Shown here: positions 28,909 through 51,890 of the stretch, one piece after another
Numbering within the stretch: the stretch's first letter is position 1
How the letters are laid out: the number at the start of each line of letters is the position of its first letter
Assembly: GCF_029457495.1 (NCBI RefSeq)
Contig: NZ_CP120361.1
Location: forward strand, 434,001-498,000
Direction: 5' to 3'
DNA length: 64,000 bases
Origin: Chelativorans sp. AA-79
GTDB lineage: Bacteria > Pseudomonadota > Alphaproteobacteria > Rhizobiales > Rhizobiaceae
The notes under the pieces: model-generated
Databases searched by the model: none
What the model saw: the letters and a program-made list of their open reading frames with translations, nothing else
What the model was told of the DNA's origin: nothing
Made by a program: the position numbers and the translations under genes

Positions 28909-28922
28909 GTGTGGCGGTTTCC

Positions 28923-31962: not shown

Positions 31963-31999
31963 AACGTCCTCCCTGGTCTGGTGTTTTGCAGCGCCCGGG

Positions 32000-33181: not shown

Positions 33182-33199
33182 TGAACTGCCCTTCCCGGC

Positions 33200-33487
33200 T
33201 TACCAGCGCTTGGTCTTGAGATTGTGGACGTGCACATGTCCGCCCTTTTCGACGTCGGCGATGATCTTGCCGATGTCCTCGCCGTATTTGACCGCGGTGT
33301 CGCCGTTCCTCAGATCCTTGAGCGCCACCTTGTGACCGATCGGCACATCGGCCTTCGCCGTAAGCTGAAAGCTCGAGTTGTCGGCGGTGACGACGCACAG
33401 CATGTCCGTGCCCGCCTTGAGATCCTCCACGACGACGACGCCGACATTGTCCTCATGATCATGCACGAGAAGATGCGGGTTTTGCAT
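33200..33487 (-). CDS. suyA: (2R)-sulfolactate sulfo-lyase, small (alpha) subunit
   Basis: 95 residues forming a single SAF domain. It begins with HDHEDNVGVVVVEDL and ends HVHVHNLKTKRW, the latter being the typical C-terminus of small altronate-dehydratase-like subunits. In SuyAB the small subunit binds the substrate carboxylate beside SuyB. GAGGG precedes the ATG. It is the first gene of an eight-gene operon (suyA, suyB, TctC, TctA, TctB, slcC, comC, exporter) running leftward to 25942. Confidence 0.88.
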   Translation of the reverse strand: MQNPHLLVHDHEDNVGVVVVEDLKAGTDMLCVVTADNSSFQLTAKADVPIGHKVALKDLRNGDTAVKYGEDIGKIIADVEKGGHVHVHNLKTKRW

Positions 33488-33530: not shown

Positions 33531-33553
33531 TCACATGCATGTGGCCATGTCAA
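33524..33553 (-). promoter_or_regulatory. promoter of the suyA operon
   Basis: Read on the minus strand, TTGACA (plus-strand 33553-33548) and TTATAT (33529-33524) are spaced 18 bp, 37 bp ahead of the suyA start codon. The -35 is a perfect consensus and this is the only gap in front of the operon, in an AT-rich patch of otherwise GC-rich DNA. Confidence 0.65.
33532..33543. promoter_or_regulatory. 12-bp palindrome within the suy promoter spacer
   Basis: CACATGCATGTG is a perfect palindrome located between the -35 and -10 boxes of the suy promoter. It may be a second regulator site, distinct in sequence from the CTTATATAAG operator. Confidence 0.4.
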
Positions 33554-33598
33554 TCACCGGACGTTAAAAGGCGCGAAGCGCACGCAGGATCGCACGTC

Positions 33599-37463: not shown

Positions 37464-38349
37464 CCGCTCCCGAGGTCAGGCCGCGCACCATTGAGCGCTG
37501 GACGGCGAAGAAGGCGATCATCAACGGCAGGGTTGTGATGGTCGCGGCCGCCATCATACCGCCCCAGTCGGTTTTGAATTGGCCGGTGAAGGTCAGCACG
37601 AGGGCTGCCGGCAGCGTCTGCTTGTCCAGCGAAGTGATGAAGGTCAGCGGGTAGATCAGATTGTTCCACGCCTCCATGAAAACGAAGGTGCCGGTGGTGA
37701 GAATGCCGGGAAAGACAAGCGGCACGACGACCCGCAGGAGAACCTGCCATCGGGGATAGCCATCGACGCGCGCCGCCTCCTCCACCTCGATCGGAACGGC
37801 GTCGATGAAGCTCTTCATCATCCACACCGCAAAGGGCAGGCCGAAAGTGGTGAAGCCGACGACGAGGCCGGAAAGGCTGTCGAGCAGCTGTGCGTTGAGC
37901 AGAAGCAGATAAAGCGGCGCAAGCAGTACGATCATCGGCAGCATGCGCACGATGAGCACCGTGTAACCGATCGACGTGCGGAGGCGGAACTGCGCGCGCG
38001 AAAGCGCGTAAGCCGCCGGCGTGGCGACGACGACCGCGATGAGGGCGGTCAGGAAGCAACTCACCACCGTATTGAAGAAGAACGAGACGAAAGGCAGCGT
38101 CCCCCCGCCAAGGCCAATATAGTTGGCCAGTGTCGGCTCGTGCGGCCAAAGCGTCGGGTCGAGCCGCGTTGCCTCCAGCTCCGTCTTGAGCGAGGTGGAA
38201 AGCATCCAATAGACCGGCGCGAGGCTCCACACGAGCGCAAAGCCGATCGCCGCCATCTGCACGACCTTGCCGGAGCGCTGCCACGCATCGGTGCGGCTGG
38301 AAGAAGCGCCCAGCGCGGCCGAGGATGGAAAGGTCTCTTCATTGCTCAT
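37450..38349 (-). CDS. CUT1 sugar ABC permease (MalG type)
   Basis: 299 residues, six membrane helices. The EAA loop (VEEAARVDGYPRWQVLLRVV) docks the ATPase. ATG 38349 was taken because the protein then begins with a short cytoplasmic tail before helix 1; it follows the MalF-type gene by 2 nt. Its 3' end overlaps the SDR gene by 14 nt, so the operon is very compact. Confidence 0.9.
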   Translation of the reverse strand: MSNEETFPSSAALGASSSRTDAWQRSGKVVQMAAIGFALVWSLAPVYWMLSTSLKTELEATRLDPTLWPHEPTLANYIGLGGGTLPFVSFFFNTVVSCFLTALIAVVVATPAAYALSRAQFRLRTSIGYTVLIVRMLPMIVLLAPLYLLLLNAQLLDSLSGLVVGFTTFGLPFAVWMMKSFIDAVPIEVEEAARVDGYPRWQVLLRVVVPLVFPGILTTGTFVFMEAWNNLIYPLTFITSLDKQTLPAALVLTFTGQFKTDWGGMMAAATITTLPLMIAFFAVQRSMVRGLTSGAVAGA

Positions 38350-38351
38350 GT

Positions 38352-39266
38352 TCAGTTCATCCTGAGCGCGCGCACATAGGCGACCGCGAATACGAGAAGC
38401 AGCAGAAGCCAGATCACGCCGGTGGCCGAGGCGTAGCCGAATTCGAAATTCTCGAAGGCCAGGCGGTAGACGTAGACCACGAGGGTGGTCGTGCTGAATC
38501 CGGGGCCGCCCTGGGTCATGGCCCAGATCTTCGCGAAGTCGTTGAAGTTGGCGATGATCATCAGCAGGCTCGAGACGATCAACGGATTTCGCAGGAATGG
38601 CAGCTTGATATGCCAGATCATGCTCCAAGTCCGCGCGCGATCGACACGTGCGGATTCGATGACCTCGTTCGGAATCCCGGAGAGCGCCGCGCTCAAAAGG
38701 AGAAAGAAGAACGGCGCCATCGCCCAGATATTGGCGACCATGACCGCCGGCATCGCCAGGGCGGCATTGTTGAGCCACGGGACCGGATGGTCGATCAGCC
38801 CCGACCACAGGAGCATCTCGTTCACGATGCCGCCGTTCTGCATGTACATGTAGCGGAACAGGAAGGCGACGACGACGAAGGGCACGGCCCAGGGCACCAG
38901 AAGGAGCGCCCGGACGGCCCGAAACTGCGGACCTGCCAGATTGTCCAGCAGGAGCGCGAAGATGAGGCCGAGAAGCGCCGAGACGAAAACGCTTCCGAAG
39001 GTGTAGACGGCAGTGTTGTAGAGCGCCGTCCAGAAGACCGGGTCGGAGAAGAGGCTGCTGTAGTTGCCCGCGCCCACATAGCCGCCGGGCACGATGTCCA
39101 GCAGGTTGTAATCCTGCACGGACAGCATGAGCGTGTAGACGACCGGATAGCCGACGACGAGCGCAAGCACCGCCAGCGTCGGCATCACCATCCAGTCCAG
39201 CCATGGCACCCGTCCGGACGCTCTCCGGACGGGCTTCTGGTTCTCCATCACGGCCGTGTTGCTCAT
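38352..39266 (-). CDS. CUT1 sugar ABC permease (MalF type)
   Basis: 304 residues, six membrane helices, with the EAA-like loop (NEVIESARVDRARTWSMIWH) that contacts UgpC. It forms the channel with the MalG-type protein encoded just behind it. Start overlaps the stop of the binding-protein gene by 4 nt. Confidence 0.9.
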   Translation of the reverse strand: MSNTAVMENQKPVRRASGRVPWLDWMVMPTLAVLALVVGYPVVYTLMLSVQDYNLLDIVPGGYVGAGNYSSLFSDPVFWTALYNTAVYTFGSVFVSALLGLIFALLLDNLAGPQFRAVRALLLVPWAVPFVVVAFLFRYMYMQNGGIVNEMLLWSGLIDHPVPWLNNAALAMPAVMVANIWAMAPFFFLLLSAALSGIPNEVIESARVDRARTWSMIWHIKLPFLRNPLIVSSLLMIIANFNDFAKIWAMTQGGPGFSTTTLVVYVYRLAFENFEFGYASATGVIWLLLLLVFAVAYVRALRMN

Positions 39267-40534
39267 TGCCGGTCGAGCTGGCTCTGGACGGAGGCGGCGA
39301 TATCGTCGATCGGCTCGGTGCCGGTCACCGCCTGCTGGACGCCGGCCATCACCGCAGTGGAGGCCGCCGCGAAATCAGGCCCGTATGGCTGCGGCGCCAC
39401 GGTGGGAATGATGCGCTCGCGGAAAGCGTTGAAGATCGGCGTGTCCAGTTCTTCGGATAGCGCCTCAGGCGCCTCCTGCAGCGGCGGCAGAGAGGAATTG
39501 TAGCTGACCGTGTAGTTCGCGATGGCGTCCGGCGACGTCGCCAGATATTGCATGAACTTCCATGCGGCCTCCTTCTTCTCGCTGTCGGCGAACATGACGA
39601 GCTGATGCCCGCCTTCGAAGGAGTGGGATTCCCCGCCGGGTCCCGTGGGCATGGCGGCAACGCCCCAATGCTCATAGAACTCCTCGTCCGACATGCCGTT
39701 GGTGCTCTGGATCACGCCTTGAAGCAGCACCTGATCCCAGTGGAATGCCACCTTGTCCTGGGCGGCCAGGGGCCGGAACTCGCCGATCTTGCGGCCGGGG
39801 TCGATGTAGCCCTTCTGCGCGAGATCGCGCATCCACTGGAGATAGGCCTTCATCTCGGGTGACTCGGCACCCGTTGCGCCTTCGCCCACCGGCTGGGCGC
39901 CGAAGGTGCGCATCCAGGGCCAGTTGGAACTCATGGAAAAGGCGCGGTTCGTGGTGTCGAGGCCTAGCGGAATGACGTCCGGCTGGCTTTCCTTGACGGC
40001 GGCCATCGCCTCCATCAGCTCATCGATCGTCTTCGGCGGGTTCTCGGGGTCGAGCCCGGCTTCCTCCATGATGGCCTTGTTGTACCACAGGCCGGCAGGC
40101 GCGTGGTTCCACGGCAGCGCGATCAGCTTGCTGTCGAGTCTGAGATCCTCCAGCCCGGTCAACTCCACGTCCAGCCTTGCGACATACTCATCGAGCGGTT
40201 CGAGCTTTCCTGTCGCGGCAAGCAGGAAGGTGTCGTTGCCGGCAAGCTGGGAAACATCCGGCGGATTGCCGGAGCGGACCCGCAGGACAAGCTGCCTTGC
40301 GATCTCGGAGAACGAAATAGCTTCGCTCTCGATCTCAATGTTCGGATTGGCCGCCTCGAAATCGGCGATCACCTTTTCGATTCCAGGGCGCGTCGCAGCT
40401 TCCGCGGACGCCCAGTTGGCGAAAGTCAGCGTGATCTTCTCCTGCGCGGTCGCGGCGGTGACGACGGCCGCCATAGCCAGGGCCGAAGTGGCGAACAGCG
40501 CGGACACACGCCTGCACGAGTGGATCGAAGTCAA
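39263..40534 (-). CDS. CUT1 sugar ABC transporter binding protein
   Basis: 423 residues; signal peptide MTSIHSCRRVSALFATSA... ending VTAATAQ. Family 1 extracellular solute-binding fold, rich in aromatic residues for sugar stacking. The start codon is TTG at 40534, with GGGAGG 5 nt before it; no ATG is suitably placed. First gene of the operon binding protein - MalF - MalG - SDR - UgpC - DgoD-like, all on the minus strand. Ligand unknown; the catabolic genes point to an aldose or a sugar acid. Confidence 0.88.
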   Translation of the reverse strand: MTSIHSCRRVSALFATSALAMAAVVTAATAQEKITLTFANWASAEAATRPGIEKVIADFEAANPNIEIESEAISFSEIARQLVLRVRSGNPPDVSQLAGNDTFLLAATGKLEPLDEYVARLDVELTGLEDLRLDSKLIALPWNHAPAGLWYNKAIMEEAGLDPENPPKTIDELMEAMAAVKESQPDVIPLGLDTTNRAFSMSSNWPWMRTFGAQPVGEGATGAESPEMKAYLQWMRDLAQKGYIDPGRKIGEFRPLAAQDKVAFHWDQVLLQGVIQSTNGMSDEEFYEHWGVAAMPTGPGGESHSFEGGHQLVMFADSEKKEAAWKFMQYLATSPDAIANYTVSYNSSLPPLQEAPEALSEELDTPIFNAFRERIIPTVAPQPYGPDFAAASTAVMAGVQQAVTGTEPIDDIAASVQSQLDRQ

Positions 40535-40596
40535 TGAAACCTCCCTTTTTTTCGAAAGCGCACTTTGCTCCTCAACCCCGCTTTCTGCCGGATCAA

Positions 40597-40614
40597 TATC
40601 TGATATTCCAGATA
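40597..40614. promoter_or_regulatory. inverted repeat in the divergent gap, possible operator of the FCD-type regulator
   Basis: TATCTG (40597-40602) and CAGATA (40609-40614) form a 6-bp inverted repeat with a 6-bp spacer, in the region between the binding protein gene and the GntR/FCD regulator gene. On the minus strand a weak TAGACA ... TATTGA promoter-like pair surrounds it. Confidence 0.4.
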
Positions 40615-40674
40615 CTGTCTAGGCAAAGCCCCAGCCGCGCGCTAAAAGATTCCGTCGGTGTCAGGGGAACGGAT

Positions 40675-41373
40675 TTGGATCTGCTACGTCTCAACAGGCC
40701 GGAATCGCTGTCTGAAATGGCGTTGCGGGAGCTGCGCAACGCCATCATCGAGGGGCGCTTGAAGCTCGGCGACCAGGTTTCGGAAATCCGGCTCTCCAAG
40801 ATGCTCGGCATCAGCAAGACGCCCGTGCGGGAGGCGCTGCAGGAACTGAGGCGCGAGGGCCTGGTGCAGATCGACCCCCAACGCGGCACCTCGATCTTCC
40901 GTATCGAGGAGGCGGAGATCGACCAGATCGCCGAGTTCCGCCGGCTGCTCGAACTCGCAGCGGCCCGCCGCATCATGGCCGGCGACCGGAGTGAAGCGTG
41001 TCGCAGGATGCGCATCGTCGTGAACGACATGCACAAGGCGCTGGCAGACAACGACTTCGCCGCCTACCGCAAACTCGATGCGCAGTTTCATCTGGTGCTC
41101 ATCGAGTGCTGCGGGAACGGGTATATCCGCGATGGTTACGGGCTCATCGCCGCCAAGATCGGGGCGCTGCGCACGCGCGCCCACGACGACCGGCATGTGG
41201 TCGATCGCTCGCTCGGCGCCCACACGATGCTCTGCGGGATGCTGGAAACGGGCGACGAGCAGGCCTTTTGCACGCTCCTGTCACGGCATATCGAGAATAC
41301 CGGACGCGATTATCGTGCGTGGCTCGAACGCCAGGGCGAGGGCGCCGCACGGGCGCGCGACGCCACCACCTGA
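40675..41373 (+). CDS. GntR-family regulator, FadR subfamily (FCD domain)
   Basis: 232 residues from a TTG at 40675 that has AGGGGA 6 nt upstream. The same frame is open back to an ATG at 40534, but that would cover the whole divergent promoter region and add a tail not seen in the family, so I prefer the short form. Winged helix at the N-terminus (LRNAIIEGRLKLGD, SKTPVREALQELRREGLV); the rest is an FCD all-helical ligand domain with candidate metal ligands. Divergent from the sugar ABC operon with DgoD-like dehydratase, which it probably controls in response to a sugar acid. Confidence 0.85.
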   Translation: MDLLRLNRPESLSEMALRELRNAIIEGRLKLGDQVSEIRLSKMLGISKTPVREALQELRREGLVQIDPQRGTSIFRIEEAEIDQIAEFRRLLELAAARRIMAGDRSEACRRMRIVVNDMHKALADNDFAAYRKLDAQFHLVLIECCGNGYIRDGYGLIAAKIGALRTRAHDDRHVVDRSLGAHTMLCGMLETGDEQAFCTLLSRHIENTGRDYRAWLERQGEGAARARDATT

Positions 41374-41377: not shown

Positions 41378-42517
41378 TCATACCGGCAGTGCGACCCGGT
41401 AGCGCTCGAGCCCGTCCAGATCGGGCGCCACGCCCAGACCGTACCCCTCCGGAACGCGCATATTGCCGGATGTGATATCGGGAAAGCCGAGAATGAAACG
41501 GTCGCGCAGGGGATTTGGGTTCGAATCGACTTCAAGCACACCGTCACCGCCGACGGCCGCCAGGAAATGCAGGGAGGCCATGAGGCCGATACCGCCGCCG
41601 AGCCAATGCGGGCACAGGCTGATCCCGTGTTCCAGCGCCCGGCGGCCGATCGCGACACAGCGGCTGAAGCCACCCCATTTGCCGATATCGGGTTGCAGGA
41701 CCGATATGCCGCCCGACTCCATCATCTGCCTGAATGCCGCATCGCCGCGAAGATTCTCGCCCAGGGCCACCGGGATTGGCGAACCGCGCGTCAGCCGCTG
41801 CCAATCCGACAACGGAGCATCGGCGCGCAGAGGCTCTTCGAGCCACACCGGCCCAAAGGGCGCAAGGGCGGCGCTCATCTCCACCGCTTCCTCAAAAGTC
41901 CACGCCTGATTGGCGTCCACCATGATCGGTGTTCCCGGACCGAAGGCCTCCCGCAATGCGCGCAAGTTGCGCACATCGCGCTCCTGCCCGAAGCCGACCT
42001 TGAGCTTGAACCGGCGATAGCCCTCCGCGTGCTTGCGCAGTGCCAGGATCTCCGGCCGATCGGCGTTCAGGCCGCTGGCATAGGCCGGCACGGACCCGAT
42101 CTCCTCCTCGCGGAACATCCGGTAAAGCGGCTTGCGCGCTCTTCTGGCGACCAGGTCCCAGAGCGCAATGTCCAGGCCCGCGACCGCCTGCGCGAGCGGA
42201 CCGGGCTCACCGCTTTGAATGGCGAGCACTTCGGTCGCGGCGGTGAGCCGGCGGAAGGCTTCCGAGGGATCGTCAAAGCGCCTCGACTTGCACAAGGGCG
42301 CCAGCGTCGACTGGATGAGCCGGGCGCGATGCTCGGCGCCGACCGAGGGAAAGTTGCACCAGACCTCCCCCCAGCCTTCGGCTCCGTCGGAGGACCGCAC
42401 CTGAACGAAAAGGGCTGGACGGTCCCGCATCTCTCCGAAGGAGGTCACCACAGGCACGTCGATCGGCACCCGGAAGACATGCGGTGTGATCTCTGCGGTT
42501 TCGAAGGATATGTCCAT
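41378..42517 (-). CDS. Enolase-superfamily (mandelate racemase/muconate lactonising type) enzyme
   Basis: 379 residues. KLKVG (catalytic KxK), MVDANQAW (metal Asp), WLEEPL (metal Glu), GENLRG (metal Glu) and PHWLGGGIGL (general acid His) identify the mandelate racemase subgroup. Such enzymes dehydrate sugar acids or epimerise carboxylates; I cannot name the substrate. ATG 42517 was chosen over an upstream ATG because the protein then starts at the capping domain (MDISFETAEITPHVFRV). It follows the LacI gene by 11 bp and converges with the FCD regulator (4 bp gap). Confidence 0.8.
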   Translation of the reverse strand: MDISFETAEITPHVFRVPIDVPVVTSFGEMRDRPALFVQVRSSDGAEGWGEVWCNFPSVGAEHRARLIQSTLAPLCKSRRFDDPSEAFRRLTAATEVLAIQSGEPGPLAQAVAGLDIALWDLVARRARKPLYRMFREEEIGSVPAYASGLNADRPEILALRKHAEGYRRFKLKVGFGQERDVRNLRALREAFGPGTPIMVDANQAWTFEEAVEMSAALAPFGPVWLEEPLRADAPLSDWQRLTRGSPIPVALGENLRGDAAFRQMMESGGISVLQPDIGKWGGFSRCVAIGRRALEHGISLCPHWLGGGIGLMASLHFLAAVGGDGVLEVDSNPNPLRDRFILGFPDITSGNMRVPEGYGLGVAPDLDGLERYRVALPV

Positions 42518-42528: not shown

Positions 42529-43587
42529 TCAGTCTTTGGGAGGCGGCGCAGTGGATTCGCGAACCACCAGGGAAAAATCTATCTCGCGATGCATGATCGC
42601 CGGCGCGCCCGCCAGATGCTCCACGAGATATTCGCCCGCCCGGACCCAGATCTCGTCGGTCGGCATGTGGATCGTCGTCAGGCTCGGCTGCAGATGGCGG
42701 CTCCATTCGAGATCATCGAAGCCGACGACCGAAAGTTGCTGCGGAACCGGGATGCCGAGCTTCTGCGCCTCCAGCATCACGCCATAGGCGATGACGTCGT
42801 TGCCGCAGACCAGCGCTGTCGGCCGGTCGCCTTCCGCCAGGATGTAGCGCGCCGCCTGGCGCGCATCATCGAGATTGTAGTTGACCTGCACCATCCAGCG
42901 TTCCGGCGGCGGCGCGTCATGCTCCTCCAGAACCTGGAGGACCCCGGTGAGGCGGGCCTGCGCGCGGTCGTTGTTCCTCTGCATCGCCGCCACGATTCCC
43001 ACGCGCCTGTGGCCGAGCTCGATCAGATGCTGCGTGATGCGCCGCCCCGCCGCCGCGTTGTCCACGCCGATGCTGGGATAGGGCTTTTCCGGCTCGTAGA
43101 CGCCGACATTCACGAAAGGGATCTTCTGCGAAAGCAGAAGTTTGCGCAGCTCATCATGCCGCTTGTCTCCGCGCAGGATAAGCCCGTCTATGCCGCGGCT
43201 GACGAGGTTGCGCGCCTGCTTGAGCTCGATGTCGAGATCATACTCATTGGTGGAAAGCAGAAGCAGGTAGTCCTTCGTCGCCAGGTAGGACTGCAGCGAC
43301 TGCAGACCGCGCGCGAACATCGCATTGTCGATGGTCGGCACGATGGCTCCGATCGTGCGGGTCCGCCGGCTGGACAGGGCACGGGCGGAGGCATCGGGGA
43401 TGTAACCGATTTCGTCGATCACCGTGTTGATGCGCGCGCGAAGCCCGGCACTCACCGACTCAGGGTTGTTGAGCGCGCGGGAAACCGTCGCGGTAGAGAC
43501 GCCCGCCCGCTTCGCCACTTCGCGGATTCCAACGGATTTTGCCTCGTCGAGAAGCGTGGTCGTCGGTTTTTTAGAAATCGGTTTCAT
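42529..43587 (-). CDS. LacI-family transcriptional regulator
   Basis: 352 residues. The helix-turn-helix VAKRAGVSTATVSRALN (about 25-41) is followed by a hinge helix and a periplasmic-binding-protein-like sugar domain (FDDLEWSRHLQPSLTTI near the end). It faces the ABC/kinase/aldolase operon across 220 bp that contain a 14-bp LacI-type operator on top of the promoter, so it should repress that operon until its sugar or a phosphorylated intermediate binds. Co-transcribed with the enolase-family gene downstream. Confidence 0.9.
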   Translation of the reverse strand: MKPISKKPTTTLLDEAKSVGIREVAKRAGVSTATVSRALNNPESVSAGLRARINTVIDEIGYIPDASARALSSRRTRTIGAIVPTIDNAMFARGLQSLQSYLATKDYLLLLSTNEYDLDIELKQARNLVSRGIDGLILRGDKRHDELRKLLLSQKIPFVNVGVYEPEKPYPSIGVDNAAAGRRITQHLIELGHRRVGIVAAMQRNNDRAQARLTGVLQVLEEHDAPPPERWMVQVNYNLDDARQAARYILAEGDRPTALVCGNDVIAYGVMLEAQKLGIPVPQQLSVVGFDDLEWSRHLQPSLTTIHMPTDEIWVRAGEYLVEHLAGAPAIMHREIDFSLVVRESTAPPPKD

Positions 43588-43704: not shown

Positions 43705-43733
43705 TTGACATTGCCGGGATCGGAAGATATGTA
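43705..43733 (+). promoter_or_regulatory. promoter of the sugar ABC/kinase/aldolase operon
   Basis: TTGACA (43705-43710), a 17-bp spacer and TATGTA (43728-43733), 75 bp before the GTG of the binding-protein gene. The -35 is a perfect match with ideal spacing, and the -10 is overlapped by the LacI-type operator. Confidence 0.65.
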
Positions 43734-43743
43734 ACCGGTTACA
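43730..43743. promoter_or_regulatory. LacI-family operator
   Basis: TGTAACCGGTTACA is a perfect 14-bp palindrome with the central CpG typical of LacI-family sites. It covers the -10 box and start region of the operon promoter, opposite the divergent LacI gene, so binding would block transcription. Confidence 0.8.
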
Positions 43744-43807: not shown

Positions 43808-45112
43808 GTGCGATCATCATTGAAAACACTGCCGACCCTCGCCGCGGCGCTGCTTCTGCCCGCCGCCTGGGGTGCTGTTGCAGCGGCGCAGGAATTCGAC
43901 TGGAAGGCGCATGAAGGCGAGACGATCACCTTCCTCGCCAACAACAATCCGTGGGCGACGACCGTCCTGAAATACAAGGACGAGTTCGAGGCGCTGACGG
44001 GGATCACGCTCCGCGTCGACAGCTATCAGGAGCAGCAGATGCGGCAGCGCCTGCTGACCGTCATGAACGCGCGCAGCGACGAGGTGGACATCTTCATGAC
44101 CCTGCCGTCCCGCGAAGGCATGCAGTTCGCGGCGGCCGGCTGGTACGAGGACCTTCTGCCCTACACCACTGAAAACGCCGCTCCGGAATACGATTTCAAG
44201 GGCTTCAGCCCCGCACTCGTGGAAGCGGCCACCTTCGACGGCGCGCTGACGGGCGTTCCCCTGAACATCGAGGGGCCGCTTCTCTACTATCGCACCGACG
44301 TGTTCGAGAAGTGCGGGCTCAATCCCCCCGAGAGCCTTGCGGGGATCTCCGAGGTCGCGGCGGAGCTCAAGAAGTGCGCTCCCGACATGACGGCCTTCGC
44401 CTCGCGCGGGCTCGCGCCGGCGCTTCCCTATACTTTCAGCAACTTCCTTCACAATATGGGCGGAAGCTACATGGCGGACGGGAAGTCGAACCTCTGCTCG
44501 GAGGAGGGCAAGAAGGCGATTTCGCTCTATGCCTCATTGCTGAAGGACTATGGCCCGCCGGGCGTGGTCAACTACTCCTTCTATCAGCTCACCTCGCTTT
44601 ATCGCGAGGGCCGTTCGGCCATGTCATTCCAGTCCTCGAACGAATTCCCAGCCGTCATGGAAGGCGGCGCCCGGCTCGAGGATACGGCGATCGTGCCGCT
44701 GCCGGCGGGCGAGGGCGGCTCTCACCCGACCACGATCGGCTGGGCGCTGGCCGTCTCGCAGTTCAGCTCCAACCCGGAGGCGGCCTGGTACTTCGTGCAG
44801 TGGGCGAGCAGCCCTGAGATGCAGGCGAAACTCGCGCTCGAAGGCATCGCACCGCCACGCAACGCGGTGGCCTCCGACCCCGACTACCAGGCTTGGCTCG
44901 AGGAGCAGCCGGTGCGCCAGCATTGGCAGGAGGCATTGGAGCACCTGGCCGACAAGGGCACCTCGGAAGTCGGCTATCCCATCGTCCAGAATCCGGAATC
45001 GCGCGAGTATATCGGCCAGGCGGTCAACGCCGTCCTCCTCGGCACGAGCACGGTAGACGAGGCCTGCGCTGCCGCCGACGAACAGCTCAACGCGCTGATC
45101 GCGCGCGAGTAG
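43808..45112 (+). CDS. CUT1 sugar ABC transporter binding protein
   Basis: 434 residues; signal peptide RSSLKTLPTLAAALLLPAAW ending near AVAAAQ. Family 1 solute-binding fold. The start is GTG at 43808 with GGGAGG 7 nt upstream; the frame also contains an ATG at 43772 without a ribosome binding site. First gene of an operon controlled by the LacI site: binding protein, SDR, two permeases, alcohol dehydrogenase, ATPase, kinase, aldolase. The imported ligand is presumably the sugar or alditol degraded by the last genes. Confidence 0.88.
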   Translation: MRSSLKTLPTLAAALLLPAAWGAVAAAQEFDWKAHEGETITFLANNNPWATTVLKYKDEFEALTGITLRVDSYQEQQMRQRLLTVMNARSDEVDIFMTLPSREGMQFAAAGWYEDLLPYTTENAAPEYDFKGFSPALVEAATFDGALTGVPLNIEGPLLYYRTDVFEKCGLNPPESLAGISEVAAELKKCAPDMTAFASRGLAPALPYTFSNFLHNMGGSYMADGKSNLCSEEGKKAISLYASLLKDYGPPGVVNYSFYQLTSLYREGRSAMSFQSSNEFPAVMEGGARLEDTAIVPLPAGEGGSHPTTIGWALAVSQFSSNPEAAWYFVQWASSPEMQAKLALEGIAPPRNAVASDPDYQAWLEEQPVRQHWQEALEHLADKGTSEVGYPIVQNPESREYIGQAVNAVLLGTSTVDEACAAADEQLNALIARE

Positions 45113-45130
45113 TTCCACATCCCGTTCAAC

Positions 45131-45154
45131 GGGCCGCTCGCATGCGGGCGGCCC
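45131..45154. repeat. intercistronic GC hairpin after the binding-protein gene
   Basis: GGGCCGC (45131-45137) pairs with GCGGCCC (45148-45154) and the bases between are themselves palindromic (CGCATGCG), giving a 24-nt almost perfect palindrome. No T-run follows. Such hairpins behind binding-protein genes often stabilise the upstream mRNA and raise binding protein over permease. Confidence 0.55.
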
Positions 45155-45172
45155 CTAATCGGATTAGCCCGA

Positions 45173-45910
45173 ATGCCAAGCAGCCCATTCGAACTGACGC
45201 CGGGATTCCGCGCCGTTGTAATCGGCGGCGCCGGCGGTATCGGAACGGCGATCGTCCGGCTCTTTCTCAAGCTTGGCGCGGAGGTGAGCGCGACCGGTGT
45301 CAGCGAGGATGAAATCGCTCGCCTCGCGCCGGAGGGCCATCCCCGTCTGTCGCTCGAATGTCTCGACGTGACGGATGACGGCGCTGTCTGCCGCTATGCA
45401 GGCCGCTTCGATGCAGTCGACGCGCTCGTCAACTGCGCCGGCATTCTGCGGCGGGACGAGGAATATGATCGCGAGACGTTCCGCAAGGTGATCGAGGTCA
45501 ACCTGACCGGCACGTTCAGTACCTGCCTGGCCTTTCGCGCCGCACTCGCGGAAAGGGGAGGCTCCATCGTCAACATCGCTTCCATGAACGCCTTCACCGC
45601 GCTGCCGCGCATTCCCGCCTATTGCGCGAGCAAGGCTGGGGTCGTGATGCTCACCAAGGCGCTGGCGCATGCCTGGGCCGCGGACGGCATTCGCGTCAAC
45701 GCGGTGGCGCCGGGCTTCATCGAAACCGCGATCAATGCGGAGGGCCGCAAGGACCGGGTGCACTACGAGCGGATCGCCGAGCGTACGGCCTTGAAGCGCT
45801 GGGGCCAGCCGGAGGACCTGGCGGCCACGGTCGTCCATCTCGCCATGCCCGCGTCCTCCTACGTCACCGGCAGCGTCTTCGCTGTCGACGGCGGTTATCT
45901 CGCGGGCTGA
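45173..45910 (+). CDS. Short-chain dehydrogenase/reductase (SDR)
   Basis: 245 residues, classical SDR: GGAGGIG nucleotide motif (about 16-22), NCAGIL, catalytic Ser in NIASMNA and YCASKAG with the YxxxK pair, FAVDGGYL C-terminus. It oxidises or reduces a sugar or polyol with NAD(P). It stands between the binding protein and the permease genes of the operon, 15 bp before the MalF-type gene. No ribosome binding site is obvious before the ATG. With the zinc alcohol dehydrogenase downstream it could form a two-step oxidoreduction that sets up a ketose for the kinase. Confidence 0.86.
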   Translation: MPSSPFELTPGFRAVVIGGAGGIGTAIVRLFLKLGAEVSATGVSEDEIARLAPEGHPRLSLECLDVTDDGAVCRYAGRFDAVDALVNCAGILRRDEEYDRETFRKVIEVNLTGTFSTCLAFRAALAERGGSIVNIASMNAFTALPRIPAYCASKAGVVMLTKALAHAWAADGIRVNAVAPGFIETAINAEGRKDRVHYERIAERTALKRWGQPEDLAATVVHLAMPASSYVTGSVFAVDGGYLAG

Positions 45911-45924
45911 ATGCGGAGCGCCGG

Positions 45925-46794
45925 ATGGACACGTCGAATTCCCAACGGGCTCAGCTTGCCGCCCTTGCGGCACCTTCGGTCATCTTTACCGTGGCGATGA
46001 TCGCCTTCCCGTTCTGCTATACGATCTGGATCAGCTTCCAGGCGGTTTCCGCGACCGGGATGATGCGTTTCGACGGTGCGGCGAACTATGCGCGCATGGT
46101 GAACGACACGCAGTTCTGGAACGGGCTCTGGATCACGTTCTATCTCTACGCCCTGTCCCTGGTGCTGCAGCTCGTCTGCGGCACCGCGCTGGCGCTGCTT
46201 CTCTTCCGGGCGCGCCGGCTGCCGGGCATCATCCGCTCGCTCTTCATATCGCCCTTCATGCTGCCGCCGGTGGTGGCGGGAATGATGTGGCTCATTATTC
46301 TCGACCCCTCGCTGGGCGCGGCGAACTATATTCTCACCTCGCTCGGCCTGCCGCCGTCGAACTGGCTCGCCTCACCCGCCCTGGTCATTCCCACGCTCGC
46401 GCTGGTCGATACCTGGCAATGGACGCCCTATGTGGCGCTCATCGTGCTCGGCGGGCTGCAATCGCTGCCGCCCAGCGTCTACGAAGCCGCCGAGATCGAC
46501 GGCGCATCCAGGACGAAGACCCTTCTTCGAATCACCCTGCCGCTGCTCCTGCCGACCCTTGTCACGGCGACGGTGCTGCGCAGCGTCGATCTCCTGCGCT
46601 TCTTCGACCTCATCTACATCACGACGCAGGGCGGCCCGGCCAACGCCTCCACGACGCTCAACATCTACGGTTTCAGGACCGGCTTCGAATTCTTCCAGCT
46701 CGGCTATGCCGGCGCTCTGATGATCACGCTGTCGGTCATGGTGCTCGGCGTGGTGCTTGCGCTCAACCGGCTCCGCAACGCGGTGGCCTGGTAG
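45925..46794 (+). CDS. CUT1 sugar ABC permease (MalF type)
   Basis: 289 residues, six membrane helices; the EAA loop reads YEAAEIDGASRTKTLLRITL. ATG at 45925 gives a short cytoplasmic tail and lies 15 bp behind the SDR gene; the frame is open further upstream but antiparallel to nothing but SDR coding sequence. Partner of the next permease. Confidence 0.9.
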   Translation: MDTSNSQRAQLAALAAPSVIFTVAMIAFPFCYTIWISFQAVSATGMMRFDGAANYARMVNDTQFWNGLWITFYLYALSLVLQLVCGTALALLLFRARRLPGIIRSLFISPFMLPPVVAGMMWLIILDPSLGAANYILTSLGLPPSNWLASPALVIPTLALVDTWQWTPYVALIVLGGLQSLPPSVYEAAEIDGASRTKTLLRITLPLLLPTLVTATVLRSVDLLRFFDLIYITTQGGPANASTTLNIYGFRTGFEFFQLGYAGALMITLSVMVLGVVLALNRLRNAVAW

Positions 46795-46804
46795 GAGGAG
46801 AGAT

Positions 46805-47632
46805 ATGAACAGCAGCGCTTCCGCCGACCGCTGGCTCGGTTATCTCAACGTGATCCTTCTGGCGTTGGCGGGCATCATCGTCATCGCGCCCACGCTGTGG
46901 ATGGTCTTGTCGTCCTTCAAGCTTTCGCACGAGGTCACGGCCTATCCGCCGACGCTGTTGTTCACGCCGACGCTTTCGAACTACGTCTCCTTGTCGGAAA
47001 CGACACCCTTCATCCAGTACGGCATCAACAGCGTGATCGTCACTTCAGTCTCGACGGCGCTTGGCATCCTGCTCGGCGCGCCGGCAGCATTCGTCGTGTC
47101 CTGGACTCGGATCACCTGGCCGGCCATCGTCGCGCTCGTCGCGCGCATGGCGCCGGGTACGCTCTTCCTTCTGCCGTGGTACGTGATGTTCCGTCAGGTT
47201 GACATGATCGGCAGCTATTGGGCGCTCATCTTCACCCATGCGGTCATAACCATGCCGATCGTCATCTGGGTACTTATGCCTTTCTTCGACAACATTCCGC
47301 GCAGCATCTTCGAGGCCGCGCAGGTGGACGGCTGCTCGACGTTTCGCGTCTTCCATCGCATCGCGCTGCCTCTCGTGACTTCCGGTCTTGCGGTCTCGGG
47401 CATTCTCGCCTTCGTGTTCTCCTGGAATTACTTCCTCTTCGCGCTCGTGCTGTCCAATTCCGACACGAAGACGCTGATCGCCGCTTCCTTCAACTTCATC
47501 GGAGAGGGGTCGACCAACTGGGGCGCGCTCATGGCGGCCGCCACCCTGATCGCCCTGCCGCCTCTCGTCCTCGCTGTCATCGTCCAGCGCTGGCTCGTCT
47601 CGGGCCTGACGCTGGGCGCCGTCAAAGGGTGA
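46805..47632 (+). CDS. CUT1 sugar ABC permease (MalG type)
   Basis: 275 residues, six membrane helices; the EAA loop reads FEAAQVDGCSTFRVFHRIAL. GGAGGAG is 6 nt before ATG 46805. It completes the importer channel with the MalF-type protein encoded 11 bp upstream. Confidence 0.9.
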   Translation: MNSSASADRWLGYLNVILLALAGIIVIAPTLWMVLSSFKLSHEVTAYPPTLLFTPTLSNYVSLSETTPFIQYGINSVIVTSVSTALGILLGAPAAFVVSWTRITWPAIVALVARMAPGTLFLLPWYVMFRQVDMIGSYWALIFTHAVITMPIVIWVLMPFFDNIPRSIFEAAQVDGCSTFRVFHRIALPLVTSGLAVSGILAFVFSWNYFLFALVLSNSDTKTLIAASFNFIGEGSTNWGALMAAATLIALPPLVLAVIVQRWLVSGLTLGAVKG

Positions 47633-47636
47633 AGTC

Positions 47637-48638
47637 ATGCCGAATCCACCAACCATGCGGGCAGCCGATTTTCACGGCGACGACCGGATCACCATAGAAG
47701 AAAAGCCCATGCCCGTGCCGGCAACGGGCGAGGCGCTGGTGCGCGTGCTGCGCACCGCGCTCTGCGGCTCCGATTTCAAGCTGTGGCACAAGGGGGCCGA
47801 GCATATCGCAGGCCACGAGATCTTCGGGCGCGTGGAGCACCGCGGCCACGCCATGGACGGCCAACGCTGCGCCGTCTACATCCCGCTTCATTGCGGTGAA
47901 TGCGAAGCCTGCCTGGCGGGCGACACGCAGATGTGCCTCACCGTCTCTTCGCTCATCGGCTGGAACCGGGACGGCGGCTACTGCGAATATGTGGCGGTGC
48001 CGGACAATTGCCTGCTGCCGGTTCCCGACGACATCGAGGACGATCTGGGCCCGCTGCTTCTCGATACGATCGGCACGTCCGCCCATGCCGTCAGGGAAGC
48101 GGGCCGGATCGTGCCGGCCGAGAAGGAGCCGGACGTGCTGGTGACCGGCGCCGGACCCGTCGGCCTGGGTGTCATTCTGGCACTGAAGGCGCTCGGCTTC
48201 GTCAATGTCCATGTCTCCGATCCCAACGAGGAGCGGCTGGCGATCGCGACCGATTTCGGCGCCGTCGCGCATCCGGTCGGCAGCCGTGCAAAGCGTTTCA
48301 GCATGATCGTGGAGTGCTCTGGCGCGCATGCCGCGCGCAACCTCGCCATCGAGCTCATCCTGCCCAAGGGCGTGATCGTGCTGGTGGGCGAGAACGCCGC
48401 CCCCTGGACCATCACGGAGGACAAGGTGTTCCGGCGCAAGGACTTCGTGATGCTCAGAACCTTCTATTTCCCCAAGCAGGATTTCCCGGCAAACCTGGAA
48501 CTGCTGCGCGCTCACAGGAAGCAGTACGCGCGCCTGGTGGACGAGCGGTTCGGTCTCGACGCCCTGCCGGAGCGCTTCGCGCATTTCGCCCGCGGGCGCT
48601 CGATCAAACCCGTTCTCGCGTTCGAGGAGTCCAATTGA
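47637..48638 (+). CDS. Zinc-dependent medium-chain alcohol dehydrogenase (sorbitol/L-idonate dehydrogenase-like)
   Basis: 333 residues. Catalytic zinc ligands in ALCGSD (Cys) and GHEIFG (His, Glu); structural zinc cysteines in CGECEACLAGDTQMC; Rossmann motif VTGAGPVGLG (about residues 165-174). The family includes L-idonate 5-dehydrogenase, sorbitol, galactitol and threonine dehydrogenases. In this operon it may oxidise a polyol to a ketose, or act on an aldehyde or sulfonated C3 product after aldol cleavage. Its TGA overlaps the ATG of the ATPase gene. Confidence 0.85.
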   Translation: MPNPPTMRAADFHGDDRITIEEKPMPVPATGEALVRVLRTALCGSDFKLWHKGAEHIAGHEIFGRVEHRGHAMDGQRCAVYIPLHCGECEACLAGDTQMCLTVSSLIGWNRDGGYCEYVAVPDNCLLPVPDDIEDDLGPLLLDTIGTSAHAVREAGRIVPAEKEPDVLVTGAGPVGLGVILALKALGFVNVHVSDPNEERLAIATDFGAVAHPVGSRAKRFSMIVECSGAHAARNLAIELILPKGVIVLVGENAAPWTITEDKVFRRKDFVMLRTFYFPKQDFPANLELLRAHRKQYARLVDERFGLDALPERFAHFARGRSIKPVLAFEESN

Positions 48639-49717
48639 TGGCGTCCATACGCATCAGGAACCTGGTCAAGCGCTTCGGCAGCGTGACCGTCATTCCCGAT
48701 TTGAGCCTCGACATCCCTGACCACGAATTCGTGGTCCTCGTCGGTCCTTCCGGATGCGGCAAATCCACCCTCTTGCGCATTCTCGCCGGACTGGAGACGG
48801 TGAACGAGGGGGATGTCCATATCGGTGACGAGCGCGTCAACACCGTGCCCGCTGCTCGGCGCGATATCGCCATGGTCTTTCAGGACTATGCACTCTACCC
48901 GCACATGACCGTGCGGCAGAACATGGCCTTCGCACTCGAGATGCGCGGCATGAGCAAGGCCGAAATCGACGAGCGCGTGAAGAAGGCGGCCACGCTCCTG
49001 CATATCGACGGGTTGCTCGACCGCCGGCCGAAGGCGCTTTCGGGGGGGCAGCGCCAGAGGGTTGCGATGGGACGGGCCATCGTGCGCGATCCCAAGGTCT
49101 TCCTTTTCGACGAGCCCCTGTCGAACCTGGATGCCAAGCTGCGTGCGCAGGTGCGCGCCGAAATCAAGGCGCTGTCGCAGCAATTGCGCACCACCATGGT
49201 GTTCGTCACCCATGACCAGATCGAGGCGATGACCATGGCGGACCGCATCGTCGTGATGAAGTCCGGAATCATCCAGCAGGTGGGCAGCCCGGAGGATGTC
49301 TACGAAAAGCCGGCGAACCTGTTCGTCGCCGGCTTCATCGGTTCGCCTTCGATGAACTTTATCCCGGTCCGCATCTCCGGCAGCGAGATCAGCCTTGAGG
49401 ACGGACGGTCCATAGAGGCAGCACGCCTGTTCGAAAGGCGGCCGGCCGGCGTGGAAAACGGCGAGGCGCTGGTGCTCGGCGTACGCCCGGAGCACTTCCT
49501 GTTCAAACCGGACGACCCGGCCGCCTTCAAGGCGCAGGTGAGCCTTGTCGAGCCGCTCGGCTCCGACACGCTCGTCCACTTCAAGGCGGGCGGTATCGAC
49601 GCGATCGCCCGCGTGTCGCCCGACCTGCGGCCCAGGCCCGGCGACACGCTCCCGCTGATCCCGGCCGCAAACAAGGCGCATCTCTTCGCGAGCGAAACCG
49701 GCGAAGCCATACGCTGA
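48638..49717 (+). CDS. ugpC: CUT1 sugar ABC transporter ATP-binding protein (UgpC/MalK type)
   Basis: 359 residues. Walker A GPSGCGKST at 36-44, signature [15 protein letters not shown] and Walker [13 protein letters not shown] are intact; the C-terminal MalK-type domain follows. ATG overlaps the preceding stop by 1 nt (TGATG). It energises the importer of this operon. Similar to the ATPase of the left-hand sugar operon but not a copy. Confidence 0.92.
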   Translation: MASIRIRNLVKRFGSVTVIPDLSLDIPDHEFVVLVGPSGCGKSTLLRILAGLETVNEGDVHIGDERVNTVPAARRDIAMVFQDYALYPHMTVRQNMAFALEMRGMSKAEIDERVKKAATLLHIDGLLDRRPKALSGGQRQRVAMGRAIVRDPKVFLFDEPLSNLDAKLRAQVRAEIKALSQQLRTTMVFVTHDQIEAMTMADRIVVMKSGIIQQVGSPEDVYEKPANLFVAGFIGSPSMNFIPVRISGSEISLEDGRSIEAARLFERRPAGVENGEALVLGVRPEHFLFKPDDPAAFKAQVSLVEPLGSDTLVHFKAGGIDAIARVSPDLRPRPGDTLPLIPAANKAHLFASETGEAIR

Positions 49718-49732
49718 CATCAAGGACCGTCG

Positions 49733-49930
49733 ATGACCGATCCAGGACCGACCAACAGCGTTTTCGCCCAAGCCTGCCCCGTGGCGGGCGGATGGAGCCC
49801 ACCGGCGGAGGAAACAAGTCCTTCCGACGCGTTCGCCGGCTATGAGCAATCGGCACCCGGCCGCGCAGTCGCGCGATACGAGATCGAGAACCATCTCGGG
49901 ATCAAACATGATTGTGTTGTCGGGCTATGA
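49733..49930 (+). CDS. Small ORF of unknown function coupled to the kinase gene
   Basis: 65 codons. AAGGA lies 6 nt before its ATG, which comes 15 bp after the ATPase stop, and its stop overlaps the ATG of the kinase gene (ATGA). The kinase start itself has no ribosome binding site, so translation of this ORF could deliver ribosomes to it. No domain, signal peptide or membrane segment; composition is ordinary. It could be a real small protein, a translated leader, or the relic of a longer gene. Confidence 0.4.
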   Translation: MTDPGPTNSVFAQACPVAGGWSPPAEETSPSDAFAGYEQSAPGRAVARYEIENHLGIKHDCVVGL

Positions 49931-50856
49931 CACGCTTCCCGCCCCAATGGTGCGAACGCACCCCTGAACTCATCTGCCTCGGGCTGTCGGCCCTCGACTA
50001 TATCTGGACGGTCGACAGGTTCGCCGGTCCGGGCAGCGGCAAGGTTCGCGCATCCGCATTCACGACGATCGGCGGCGGCATGGCCGCGACGGCGGCCGTC
50101 ACGGCAGCGCGCCTCGGGGCGCGCGTGCAATTCTGGGGGCGCGGCGGAGACGACCATGAGGGGCGGCTTATGCGGCACGGCCTGGAAGAGGAGAATGTCG
50201 ACGTCTCGCATTTCCGGCTTTTTCCCGGAGCGCGCTCCTCCATTTCCGGGGTCATCGTCGACGCGGCGGGGGAGCGCCAGATCGCCAATTTTCGCGGCGC
50301 GGACCAGCCGGTCGATCCGGAATGGCTGCCCATCTCAGGCATCACCGGGGTTGGCGCGGTCCTGGCCGACCCGCGCTGGCCGGAGGGGGCGGCGGCGGCC
50401 TTCTCTGCCGCGCGAGCGGCGGGCGCGCCCACGGTGCTGGATGCCGACATGGCGGAGCCGGAGGTCTTCACGGCTCTCCTGCCGCTGACGGATCATGCCG
50501 TCTTCTCAAAGCCCGCACTGGAAGCCTTCGCCGGCAGTGCGGCCGACCCGCTGGCGGAGATATGCGCCTTCGGGTGCAAGGTCGCGGCGGTGACGGAGGG
50601 CAGCGAGGGCGTGACGTGGCGCCAGGATGGCCGGGCGCGTCGCCAGCCGGCTTTCCCGGTGCGCTCCGTCGATACGACAGGCGCAGGCGATGTCTTTCAC
50701 GGTGCCTATGCCTTCGCCATCGCCGCCGGCGCGCCGGTCGCCGAGGCCTTCACCTTCGCCTCTGCCGCCGCGGCCCTCAAATGCACCAGGGCCGGTGGAC
50801 GCAGCGGGATTCCGACATTGGACGAAACACTTCATCTATGGAGAACTTGCGCATGA
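49927..50856 (+). CDS. PfkB-family carbohydrate kinase, YihV (sulfofructose kinase)-like
   Basis: 309 residues. GGGMAATAAVTAARLG (49-64) and DTTGAGDVFHG (249-259, catalytic Asp255) define a PfkB sugar kinase. The whole sequence aligns well by eye with what I remember of E. coli YihV: shared LAD-RW, SDHA-FS/TDHAVFS, QPAF and ALKCTR-GGR-GIP segments. The residues I recall as binding the sulfonate in YihV (Lys27, Asn109, Arg138) have equivalents Lys39, Asn121 and Arg150. Partner gene, overlapping by 4 nt, is a YihT-like aldolase. PfkB enzymes for tagatose or fructose are alternatives, because many rhizobial paralogues share part of this pattern. Confidence 0.8.
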   Translation: MTRFPPQWCERTPELICLGLSALDYIWTVDRFAGPGSGKVRASAFTTIGGGMAATAAVTAARLGARVQFWGRGGDDHEGRLMRHGLEEENVDVSHFRLFPGARSSISGVIVDAAGERQIANFRGADQPVDPEWLPISGITGVGAVLADPRWPEGAAAAFSAARAAGAPTVLDADMAEPEVFTALLPLTDHAVFSKPALEAFAGSAADPLAEICAFGCKVAAVTEGSEGVTWRQDGRARRQPAFPVRSVDTTGAGDVFHGAYAFAIAAGAPVAEAFTFASAAAALKCTRAGGRSGIPTLDETLHLWRTCA

Positions 50857-51890
50857 GCACGATCGGAAAAAGTCGCGGCCTCACCCGGCTGGCCGATGAG
50901 GACGGGTACTTCACGATGGTGGCGCTGGATCAGCGCCCTCCGCTGATCAGTGCCATCGCAAAGGCGAAATCCATCGCACCGGAGGACGTGACGTTTGCCG
51001 ATATGCTTTCGGTGAAGCGTCTGCTCGTGAAGGCCTTGGCGGAAGACGCAAGCTCCATGCTTCTCGACCCGAATTTCGCCATTCCGGCCGCGATCGACGT
51101 CCTGCCATCCAAGACCGGTTTCATCGTGACGCTCGAAGATCATCGCTTCGAGGAGACATCCTCGGGCCGCAAGTCGCGTGCGATCGACAACTGGAGCGTC
51201 GAGAAGATCCGGCGGATCGGCGGCGACGCCGTCAAGGTGCTCGCCTGGTACCGGCCGGATGCCGGCGAGGACGTCATCGCCCACCAGCAGGCTTTCGTGC
51301 GCACCATCGGCAAAGAGTGCCGCCGCTACGACATCCCCTATGTGCTGGAGCTGCTCGTCTATCCCTTCCCGGACAGCGCCGCCCACACGACCGGCTACGT
51401 GGAATCGCCTGACAAGAAGGCGGCTCTCGTCATCGAGAGCGTTCGCGAATTCGCCAAGCCGGACTATGGCGTGGACCTCTTCAAGCTGGAAACGCCGGTG
51501 CCCGCCGCGTCGCTGCCGGCAATGGACGGAAGCCCGGCCACGCAATCAGCCGCAAATGCATTCGCCGAGATCGGGGGCATCTGTCGCGAGGCGGGCATTC
51601 CCTGGGTTCTGCTTTCGGGCGGGGCCACGCCGGAGCAATTTGACCGCGTGCTCGGCTACTCCTATGCGGCCGGCGCGCAAGGCTTCCTTGCAGGCCGAAC
51701 GATCTGGCTGGACGCGGTCCAGGAACATTTCCCCGACAAGGAGGCCGTCCTGCACGCGCTCGACGAGGTTGGCAGAAAGCGGCTCAGCGACCTCAAGGCG
51801 CTGACACGAAAGAAAGCGAATCCCTGGAAGGGGGATTTCAGGACAACCGAGGTCTCCTTCGAAGGCGATTTCGCGGCGAGCTACGCCTGA
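50853..51890 (+). CDS. Class I ketose-phosphate aldolase, LacD/YihT-like
   Basis: 345 residues, DeoC/LacD barrel. TMVALDQRP (21-29) opens the barrel, Lys211 in DLFKLETP is the Schiff-base lysine, and GFLAGRTIW carries the phosphate/sulfonate-side Arg. Homologues are tagatose 1,6-bisphosphate aldolase (LacD) and sulfofructose 1-phosphate aldolase (YihT), which give dihydroxyacetone phosphate plus a C3 aldehyde. It is about 50 residues longer than YihT, with an insertion around 172-190. ATG overlaps the kinase stop (ATGA), so kinase and aldolase work as a pair. A strong terminator follows. Confidence 0.84.
   Translation: MSTIGKSRGLTRLADEDGYFTMVALDQRPPLISAIAKAKSIAPEDVTFADMLSVKRLLVKALAEDASSMLLDPNFAIPAAIDVLPSKTGFIVTLEDHRFEETSSGRKSRAIDNWSVEKIRRIGGDAVKVLAWYRPDAGEDVIAHQQAFVRTIGKECRRYDIPYVLELLVYPFPDSAAHTTGYVESPDKKAALVIESVREFAKPDYGVDLFKLETPVPAASLPAMDGSPATQSAANAFAEIGGICREAGIPWVLLSGGATPEQFDRVLGYSYAAGAQGFLAGRTIWLDAVQEHFPDKEAVLHALDEVGRKRLSDLKALTRKKANPWKGDFRTTEVSFEGDFAASYA

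Follow-up and report, generated by a model that had tools for sequence, protein, structure and literature searches.

The closest described relative of the locus analysed here, a candidate sulfosugar island in a 64,000-nucleotide stretch of Chelativorans sp. AA-79 (contig NZ_CP120361.1, positions 434,001 to 498,000; the window), is tandem sulfofucolytic-sulfolactate sulfolyase cluster 2 of Paracoccus strain Merri (P. wurundjeri, = 'P. onubensis'; PMC12421959, 2025; all papers are cited here for their accessible parts). Strain Merri was shown to consume sulfofucose completely by an Entner-Doudoroff (ED) route in which SfcH, SfcD, SfcF and SfcE yield sulfolactaldehyde and pyruvate, with release of sulfite; the later steps are proposed to run through SlcC/ComC and then SuyAB to sulfite (PMC12421959). 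The strain grows on glucose, sulfofucose and racemic 2,3-dihydroxypropane-1-sulfonate and not on sulfoquinovose (SQ) or sulfolactate, SfcD is absent from some sulfofucolytic clusters, and Chelativorans petroleitrophicus is named in Fig. 6 of the same report (PMC12421959). Sulfo-transaldolase (sulfo-TAL) clusters with SuyAB are described from Thermotogae and Chloroflexi, and most sulfoglycolytic bacteria leave a C3 sulfonate for others to complete (PMC9594981). SQ output alone is about 10 billion tons a year (PMC12890257). Islands with both halves point to bacteria that may complete sulfosugar breakdown alone.

The island in the window belongs with these published tandem sulfosugar/sulfolactate clusters. 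It comprises a sulfolactate (suy) operon, a FadR-linked middle operon that the original prediction passed over, and a LacI-linked operon ending in a PfkB kinase and a class I aldolase. We read it, with a probability of about 0.6, as a sulfosugar system of two branches that converge on a common desulfonation end. In branch A (the LacI operon), an ATP-binding cassette (ABC) importer would take up a six-carbon sulfonate, a zinc-type dehydrogenase and/or a short-chain dehydrogenase/reductase (SDR) would convert it to a 6-sulfo-ketohexose without an aldose-ketose isomerase, the kinase would phosphorylate C1, and the aldolase would release dihydroxyacetone phosphate (DHAP) and 3-sulfolactaldehyde. 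Branch B (the FadR-linked operon) would provide SfcH-like and SfcF-like enzymes of the sulfofucose ED route. In the common end, sulfolactaldehyde would be oxidised to sulfolactate, possibly by an aldehyde dehydrogenase encoded at C1:2325752-2327239 of the same genome, sulfolactate would be racemised by SlcC/ComC, and SuyAB would cleave it to pyruvate and sulfite for export. We infer every reaction and the substrate of branch A from gene content, homology, conserved residues and neighbourhoods; the substrate is probably not SQ.

The kinase (PF00294; 49927-50856, plus strand; start codon uncertain, the open reading frame opening at 49912) is a candidate sulfohexulose 1-kinase. Its best sequence match in the PDB is E. 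coli YihV (7ag6, 231 bits), followed by 2rbc (170 bits). Residues K27, N109 and R138 align with a Lys, an Asn and an Arg of YihV by sequence and fold comparison, fold-match lists serving as a second look only; we take these YihV residues to be sulfonate-binding. Relatives came from one scan, and we compared the best 80 named loci out of 178 confirmed relatives, divided into 50 closer 'window-type' loci (L039-L088) and 30 more distant ones (L089-L118), with counts made within the fetched flanks; flanks are short where a locus lies close to the end of a contig, and absences therefore count as lower bounds. Asn109 is kept in 49 of the 50 window-type kinases (among the distant loci the count of these three residues covers 26 of 30, and the gene-content table finds the kinase in 27). 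LacC, the tagatose-type kinase, falls outside the kinase clade (56 rows, taken directly from the tree) and is separated from it at support 99/83 or better, in a tree that, like that of the aldolase, has several long branches and unsure deep joins. Seven PfkB paralogue loci of the window's own genome were tried in this tree; L003 and L007 gave no sequence, and the L008 row fills 26% of the columns. The YihV-like kinase with Lys, Asn and Arg equivalents described in the original prediction is borne out.

The aldolase (PF01791, class I, DeoC/LacD type; 50853-51890, plus strand) is a candidate sulfohexulose-1-phosphate aldolase; its ATG at 50853 overlaps the kinase stop codon (50854-50856) as ATGA. 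In sequence and fold it is close to PDB 8TNF of Paracoccus strain Merri, titled 'sulfohexulose-1-phosphate aldolase', with which it shares 75% identity against ~30% with LacD. The bit scores are 578 to 8tnf, 146 to LacD and 56-60 to YihT, and so the proposed resemblance to YihT holds at the family level only. In the aldolase tree YihT (24% identity over 282 residues) lies in a separate, distant clade and LacD on a long branch of its own. One Rubrivivax metagenome-assembled genome has an operon (L084, ~6577-11029) with a YihT-like aldolase (51-53%) plus a LacD-type aldolase after a kinase with KVR at the three positions.

The sulfolactate operon near the kinase operon is real and more complete than first stated, running over 25942-33487 on the minus strand. 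It begins with suyA (sulfolactate sulfo-lyase small subunit, 33200-33487; 81% identical to strain Merri suyA, L158; no Pfam family match for the protein) and suyB ((R)-sulfolactate sulfo-lyase large subunit, 32000-33181; PF04295/PF20629; 80% to strain Merri suyB). Next come the tripartite importer genes tctC (binding protein, 31012-31962, assigned by gene order and homology to L040, L050 and L159), tctA (large subunit, 29423-30943; PF01970) and tctB (small subunit, 28923-29426; PF07331; start inferred). The last three genes, all minus, encode a slcC-like D-2-hydroxyacid dehydrogenase (27976-28908; PF02826/PF00389; start inferred) that matches the gene at the slcC position in strain Merri (L041) with 66% identity, a comC-like Ldh_2 enzyme (26978-27979; PF02615), candidate sulfolactate dehydrogenase, whose best NCBIfam model is L-sulfolactate dehydrogenase at 199.8 bits, below the cut-off of 500, and a PF03601/YeiH-type putative sulfate or sulfite exporter (25942-26937; TIGR00698 at 123 bits, below the cut-off of 232.6). 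A gene 76% identical to the exporter adjoins comC/slcC-like genes in Nitratireductor indicus (L040). A GntR-family regulator (33539-34333, plus; NCBIfam) diverges from suyAB, as it does from suyA in L040, L159 and L161. The whole suy-to-exporter string adjoins the kinase operon in N. indicus, and parts of it do so in Sagittula marina (L050) and Pararhizobium mangrovi (L051). Among three Paracoccus genomes, strain Merri and P. alkanivorans have the suy region next to the kinase operon, and P. siganidrum has it on a different contig.

No aldehyde dehydrogenase was found in the window's kinase operon. The operon includes one in 21 of the 50 closer loci, and each of these enzymes carries the marks proposed for RlGabD (W-N-F, Arg and Arg-N-x-G-Q-T-C; PMC10599462). 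The window's genome encodes an aldehyde dehydrogenase elsewhere (C1:2325752-2327239; L160 9752-11239) that shares 70% and 69% identity with genes close to suyAB in Hoeflea marina and Rhabdaerophilum and adjoins a transporter 60% identical to one in a fucose-isomerase/suyAB locus (L100). It is a candidate only for the missing sulfolactaldehyde dehydrogenase, because its best PDB matches are succinate-semialdehyde dehydrogenases and the marks recur in a paralogue of the same genome (L122). The zinc dehydrogenase, offered by the original prediction as a possible sulfolactaldehyde oxidase, was rejected in that role on the negative assay of its strain Merri homologue (accessible part of PMC12421959).

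The middle operon lies between the suy and LacI operons. Its sfcF-like gene (34336-35502, minus; sulfogalactonate or galactonate dehydratase) encodes a protein that shares 62.9% identity with its counterpart at the sfcF position in strain Merri (L041) and 80.9% with the one in C. petroleitrophicus (L161), and that scores 483 bits as an NCBIfam galactonate dehydratase, above the cut-off of 311. The other minus-strand genes encode an ABC ATPase (35539-36624; 62% to L041, 72% to L161), an sfcH-like SDR dehydrogenase (36624-37463; 52% to the gene at the sfcH position in L041 and 57% to L161), two ABC permeases (37450-39266; inner boundary not fixed) and a binding protein (39263-40534; 61% to L041). 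A FadR/GntR-type regulator stands on the plus strand (40534-41373; 41% to the gene at the same position in L041). By homology, the island combines suyAB with slcC and comC, and SfcF and SfcH with an ABC importer in one operon, both of them features of a tandem sulfofucolytic-sulfolyase cluster. The window's genome holds no convincing match to SfcE, the 2-keto-3,6-dideoxy-6-sulfogalactonate (KDSGal) aldolase of family PF03328, the best at 42% being HpaI-like, and the best match to the SfcD lactonase is weak (36-37%) and located elsewhere in the genome; branch B may therefore be incomplete or act on galactonate. The 42% match, on contig C2, was rejected as SfcE because it scores best as HpaI (355.7 bits, just below the HpaI cut-off of 368.8) and adjoins HpaH. 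A distant SfcE stand-in is possible, since HpaI/GarL types are also what the two true SfcE-like proteins score as.

The LacI operon is intact. The LacI regulator (42529-43587, minus; in 48 of the 50 window-type loci) is followed by plus-strand genes for an ABC sugar-binding protein (43808-45112; PF01547; 49 of 50), an SDR dehydrogenase (45173-45910; PF13561; 46 of 50), ABC permeases A (45922-46794) and B (46805-47632), a zinc-type polyol/threonine-dehydrogenase-like enzyme (47637-48638; PF08240/PF00107; 50 of 50), a UgpC/MalK-type ABC ATPase (48638-49717), the kinase (50 of 50) and the aldolase. The best PDB matches of the binding protein are 5iai and 4rya, and SmoF (7nbz) scores 68 bits. The 12-base palindrome GTAACCGGTTAC in the gap between LacI and the binding protein (43731-43742, no strand) is a likely LacI operator from motif comparison across loci. 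It occupies this gap in the window, in 27 of the 50 closer loci and in 0 of the 30 distant ones. All fetched DNA holds 36 exact copies, not all independent (some loci overlap), of which 34 were placed between LacI and the binding protein and the others in L024 (a short locus) and L051 (rearranged). The exact site occurs once in the strain Merri loci (L041), only in this gap, which suggests that the kinase operon responds to a signal of its own.

An enolase-superfamily gene of the mandelate-racemase (MR) type (41378-42517, minus; PF02746/PF13378; start inferred; best PDB match 3ddm, 407 bits) is kept in 25 of the 50 window-type loci and takes part in none of the proposed steps. A role as sulfolactate racemase was considered and set aside; the flanks of the Shinella loci that carry it hold no suyA/B, and a whole-genome search found no suyB anywhere in one Shinella genome (G115).

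The 50 closer loci come mostly from alpha- and betaproteobacteria. Sixteen of them have a TSUP-type exporter and 3 have suyA/B, and within the fetched flanks none has a fucose isomerase, a GH31 or a YihS gene. The 30 distant loci hold a fucose-isomerase-family gene in 24, a GFO/IDH/MocA gene in 14, suyA/B in 9, GH31 in 7 and the zinc dehydrogenase in 2. In nine loci (L090, L095, L100, L102, L106, L113, L114, L116 and L117), suyA or suyB stands with a YihV-like kinase, an aldolase of the same type and a fucose-isomerase-family gene (9/9 each), with GH31 in four and GFO/IDH/MocA in five; by gene content these are candidates for a hybrid of sulfo-EMP (Embden-Meyerhof-Parnas, EMP) breakdown and desulfonation of SQ in one locus. 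A Burkholderiales variant (L093, L098) combines a probable tripartite ATP-independent periplasmic (TRAP) importer, a histidinol-dehydrogenase-family gene, presumably HpsN-like, two zinc dehydrogenases, a YihV-like kinase (KHR) and the aldolase. Five loci of the Rhizobium group and Brucella endophytica (L010, L011, L059, L076, L082) adjoin genes for a formylglycine-generating enzyme, a sulfatase or a sulfonate ABC transporter, although not every locus has all three.

Whole-genome searches covered 18 window-type genomes, the window's own included (those of L040 and L119 lay outside this set; no E. coli positive control was run for YihS and YihQ). The original prediction had noted that an SQ isomerase and a sulfoquinovosidase were missing from the window, and the window's whole genome likewise gave no YihS (PF07221, 1e-8), fucose-isomerase-family (1e-15) or YihQ-like match. 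Among the 18 genomes, a fucose-isomerase-family match was found in one (G117) and a YihQ-like match of 46-51% in three, with weaker matches in G117. suyB is present in 13. In 397 genomes of the order, the aldolase occurs in 38 (1e-60), suyB in 79 (1e-140) and both in 19 (Fisher p 1e-5), an association that stems from the middle-identity class (17/23; low-identity class 0/7).

Within the two-branch system, we tentatively regard the LacI operon as an isomerase-free sulfo-EMP branch in which the zinc dehydrogenase and SDR would replace the isomerase, by redox isomerisation (an option raised in the original prediction) or sulfohexitol oxidation, with a rare sulfosugar or a sulfohexitol as substrate; we hold this assignment at somewhat less than even odds. 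No description of an isomerase-free sulfoglycolytic EMP branch was found in the literature searched. Several observations weigh against the two-branch system or branch A. The K-N-R residues are not fully specific, K and R recurring in kinases (KVR, KAR) from loci without sulfonate markers, and the Arg pair taken as a mark of sulfolactaldehyde dehydrogenases is shared with the L122 paralogue; the name of 8tnf is its depositors' title, and no activity assay was found in the literature searched. The zinc dehydrogenase (52) and the fucose-isomerase-family gene (24) occur together in 0 and are both missing from 4 of the 80 loci, an exclusion confounded by descent. The lack of an isomerase is not general, since YihS-family genes lie elsewhere in 9 of the 18 window-type genomes, strain Merri (G102) included, with six matches (G102-G105, G109, G115) close to full length at 32-38%. 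Nor is branch A tied to desulfonation, because 5 of the 18 genomes have no suyB and the window-type class of the order sample has it in only 2 of 8 (p 0.5; a single genus that lacks suyB makes up six of these); eight genomes, P. siganidrum (L166) among them, also carry the suy genes on a separate contig or at a great distance. In strain Merri, sulfofucose did not significantly raise the kinase or the aldolase (MDP0926268, -269), neither lysate nor metabolome gave sulfotagatose, the zinc dehydrogenase (-266) was raised on sulfofucose yet inactive on sulfolactaldehyde, and there was no growth on sulfolactate (accessible part of PMC12421959).

Three other explanations of the kinase and aldolase were weighed against the two-branch reading. 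They might form a side branch of the sulfofucose system, acting on sulfotagatose made by the dehydrogenases from sulfofucose or sulfogalactitol. Both modules stand together in the window, as they do in three loci of Paracoccus (L041, L042, L060), the zinc-dehydrogenase homologue rises on sulfofucose, and sulfotagatose was raised as a possible substrate by the authors of PMC12421959. We consider this unlikely given that isomerase activity and sulfotagatose were not detected in strain Merri (accessible part of PMC12421959), that the two modules have separate regulators, with the exact palindrome of L041 confined to the LacI gap, and that an SfcF-like gene is missing from the fetched flanks of 47 of the 50 window-type loci. 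Chance placement of an operon for an unsulfonated substrate (a tagatose, fructose or 6-deoxyketose kinase/aldolase, or a polyol operon) beside suy genes is very unlikely in our judgement. It would agree with the aldolase score above the NCBIfam tagatose-1,6-diphosphate aldolase cut-off (359 vs 184), with the best PDB matches of the binding protein, of which one is a sugar ABC binding protein and the other is labelled sorbitol, and with kinase relatives in loci without sulfonate markers. The clear separation of the kinase from LacC, the far closer match of the aldolase to 8tnf than to LacD, the near-invariant Asn109 and the suyAB neighbourhood in several genera all argue against it.

The remaining explanation, that of the original prediction, is sulfo-EMP breakdown of SQ through sulfofructose and sulfofructose 1-phosphate to DHAP and sulfolactaldehyde, followed by sulfolactate desulfonation in one organism. 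The kinase with K-N-R, the sulfohexulose-1-phosphate aldolase relative and the suy operon in one island speak for it, as does the pairing in the distant clade of such kinases and aldolases with fucose-isomerase-family (24/30), GH31 (7/30) and suyA/B (9/30) genes. We judge it quite unlikely for this window, whose genome lacks a YihS, fucose-isomerase-family or YihQ match at the cut-offs used, and whose 50 closer relatives have neither isomerase nor GH31 in their flanks. Strain Merri shares the modules of the island and has a YihS-family gene elsewhere that was not raised; it fails to grow on SQ, uses sulfofucose by the ED route and does not raise the kinase or aldolase (accessible part of PMC12421959), so that a new single-locus sulfo-EMP mineralisation of SQ is not supported. 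The sulfosugar reading survives in kind, with its YihV-like kinase, 8tnf-like aldolase and desulfonating operon in one island, and fails in detail: in the zinc dehydrogenase as sulfolactaldehyde oxidase, in the sugar, SQ, and in the novelty of cleavage and desulfonation in one locus, which PMC12421959 and the sulfo-TAL/SuyAB clusters of PMC9594981 already describe. The comparison singles out an uncharacterised kinase-aldolase operon in 50 named loci, with a substrate testable with synthetic sulfohexuloses and sulfohexitols.

Apart from the island, the window encodes at 14150-16654 (minus) an 834-residue protein with a gluconokinase-like N-terminus (31-183) and a trehalase-like region (243-817, scoring below the cut-off of that family); zwf and a gene for a 6-phosphogluconate dehydrogenase lie next to it.

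Set against known pathways, the island differs from the LacC/LacD tagatose-6-phosphate pathway in the positions of LacC, outside the kinase clade, and LacD, on its long separate branch; general annotation, with no search by name, noted no lacA/lacB-like gene in the island. With sulfo-EMP2 (SqvD/SqiK/SqiA) it shares only that distant relatives of its aldolase pair with a fucose-isomerase-family gene; the window's aldolase is class I (PF01791) and its kinase PF00294, and the genome has no fucose-isomerase-family match at the cut-off given. The distant aldolase clade was likewise ruled out as sulfo-EMP2, since SqiA is a class II aldolase (PMC12890257, PMC9594981). The sulfo-EMP system of E. coli (yih) is similar in its YihV-like kinase with K-N-R and in the class I aldolase family, and differs in having YihS and YihQ, for which the window's genome gave no match, and in the clade of its aldolase; the sole YihU match in the window (26%) is a 6-phosphogluconate dehydrogenase.

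The strain Merri cluster is far more similar. Both have suyAB, slcC, comC, the complete LacI-to-aldolase operon, the MR gene and the FadR-linked series of binding protein, permeases, sfcH, ATPase and sfcF in a single island. The gene order of L158 and L041 matches all eleven gene numbers named for strain Merri (the dehydratase is numbered 279 once and 277 elsewhere in PMC12421959; 277 fits the gene order). The window differs in its module order, in the tctCAB genes and PF03601 exporter added to its suy operon, and in lacking a convincing SfcE, with SfcD represented at most by a weak, distant match. C. petroleitrophicus carries its kinase operon and suy/sfc operon on two contigs, with SfcE-like (46%) and SfcD-like (40%) genes beside suyAB, and its aldolase, kinase, SuyB and SfcF-like protein are 85%, 79%, 94% and 81% identical to those of the window, which is a further member of the tandem cluster kind in the same genus.

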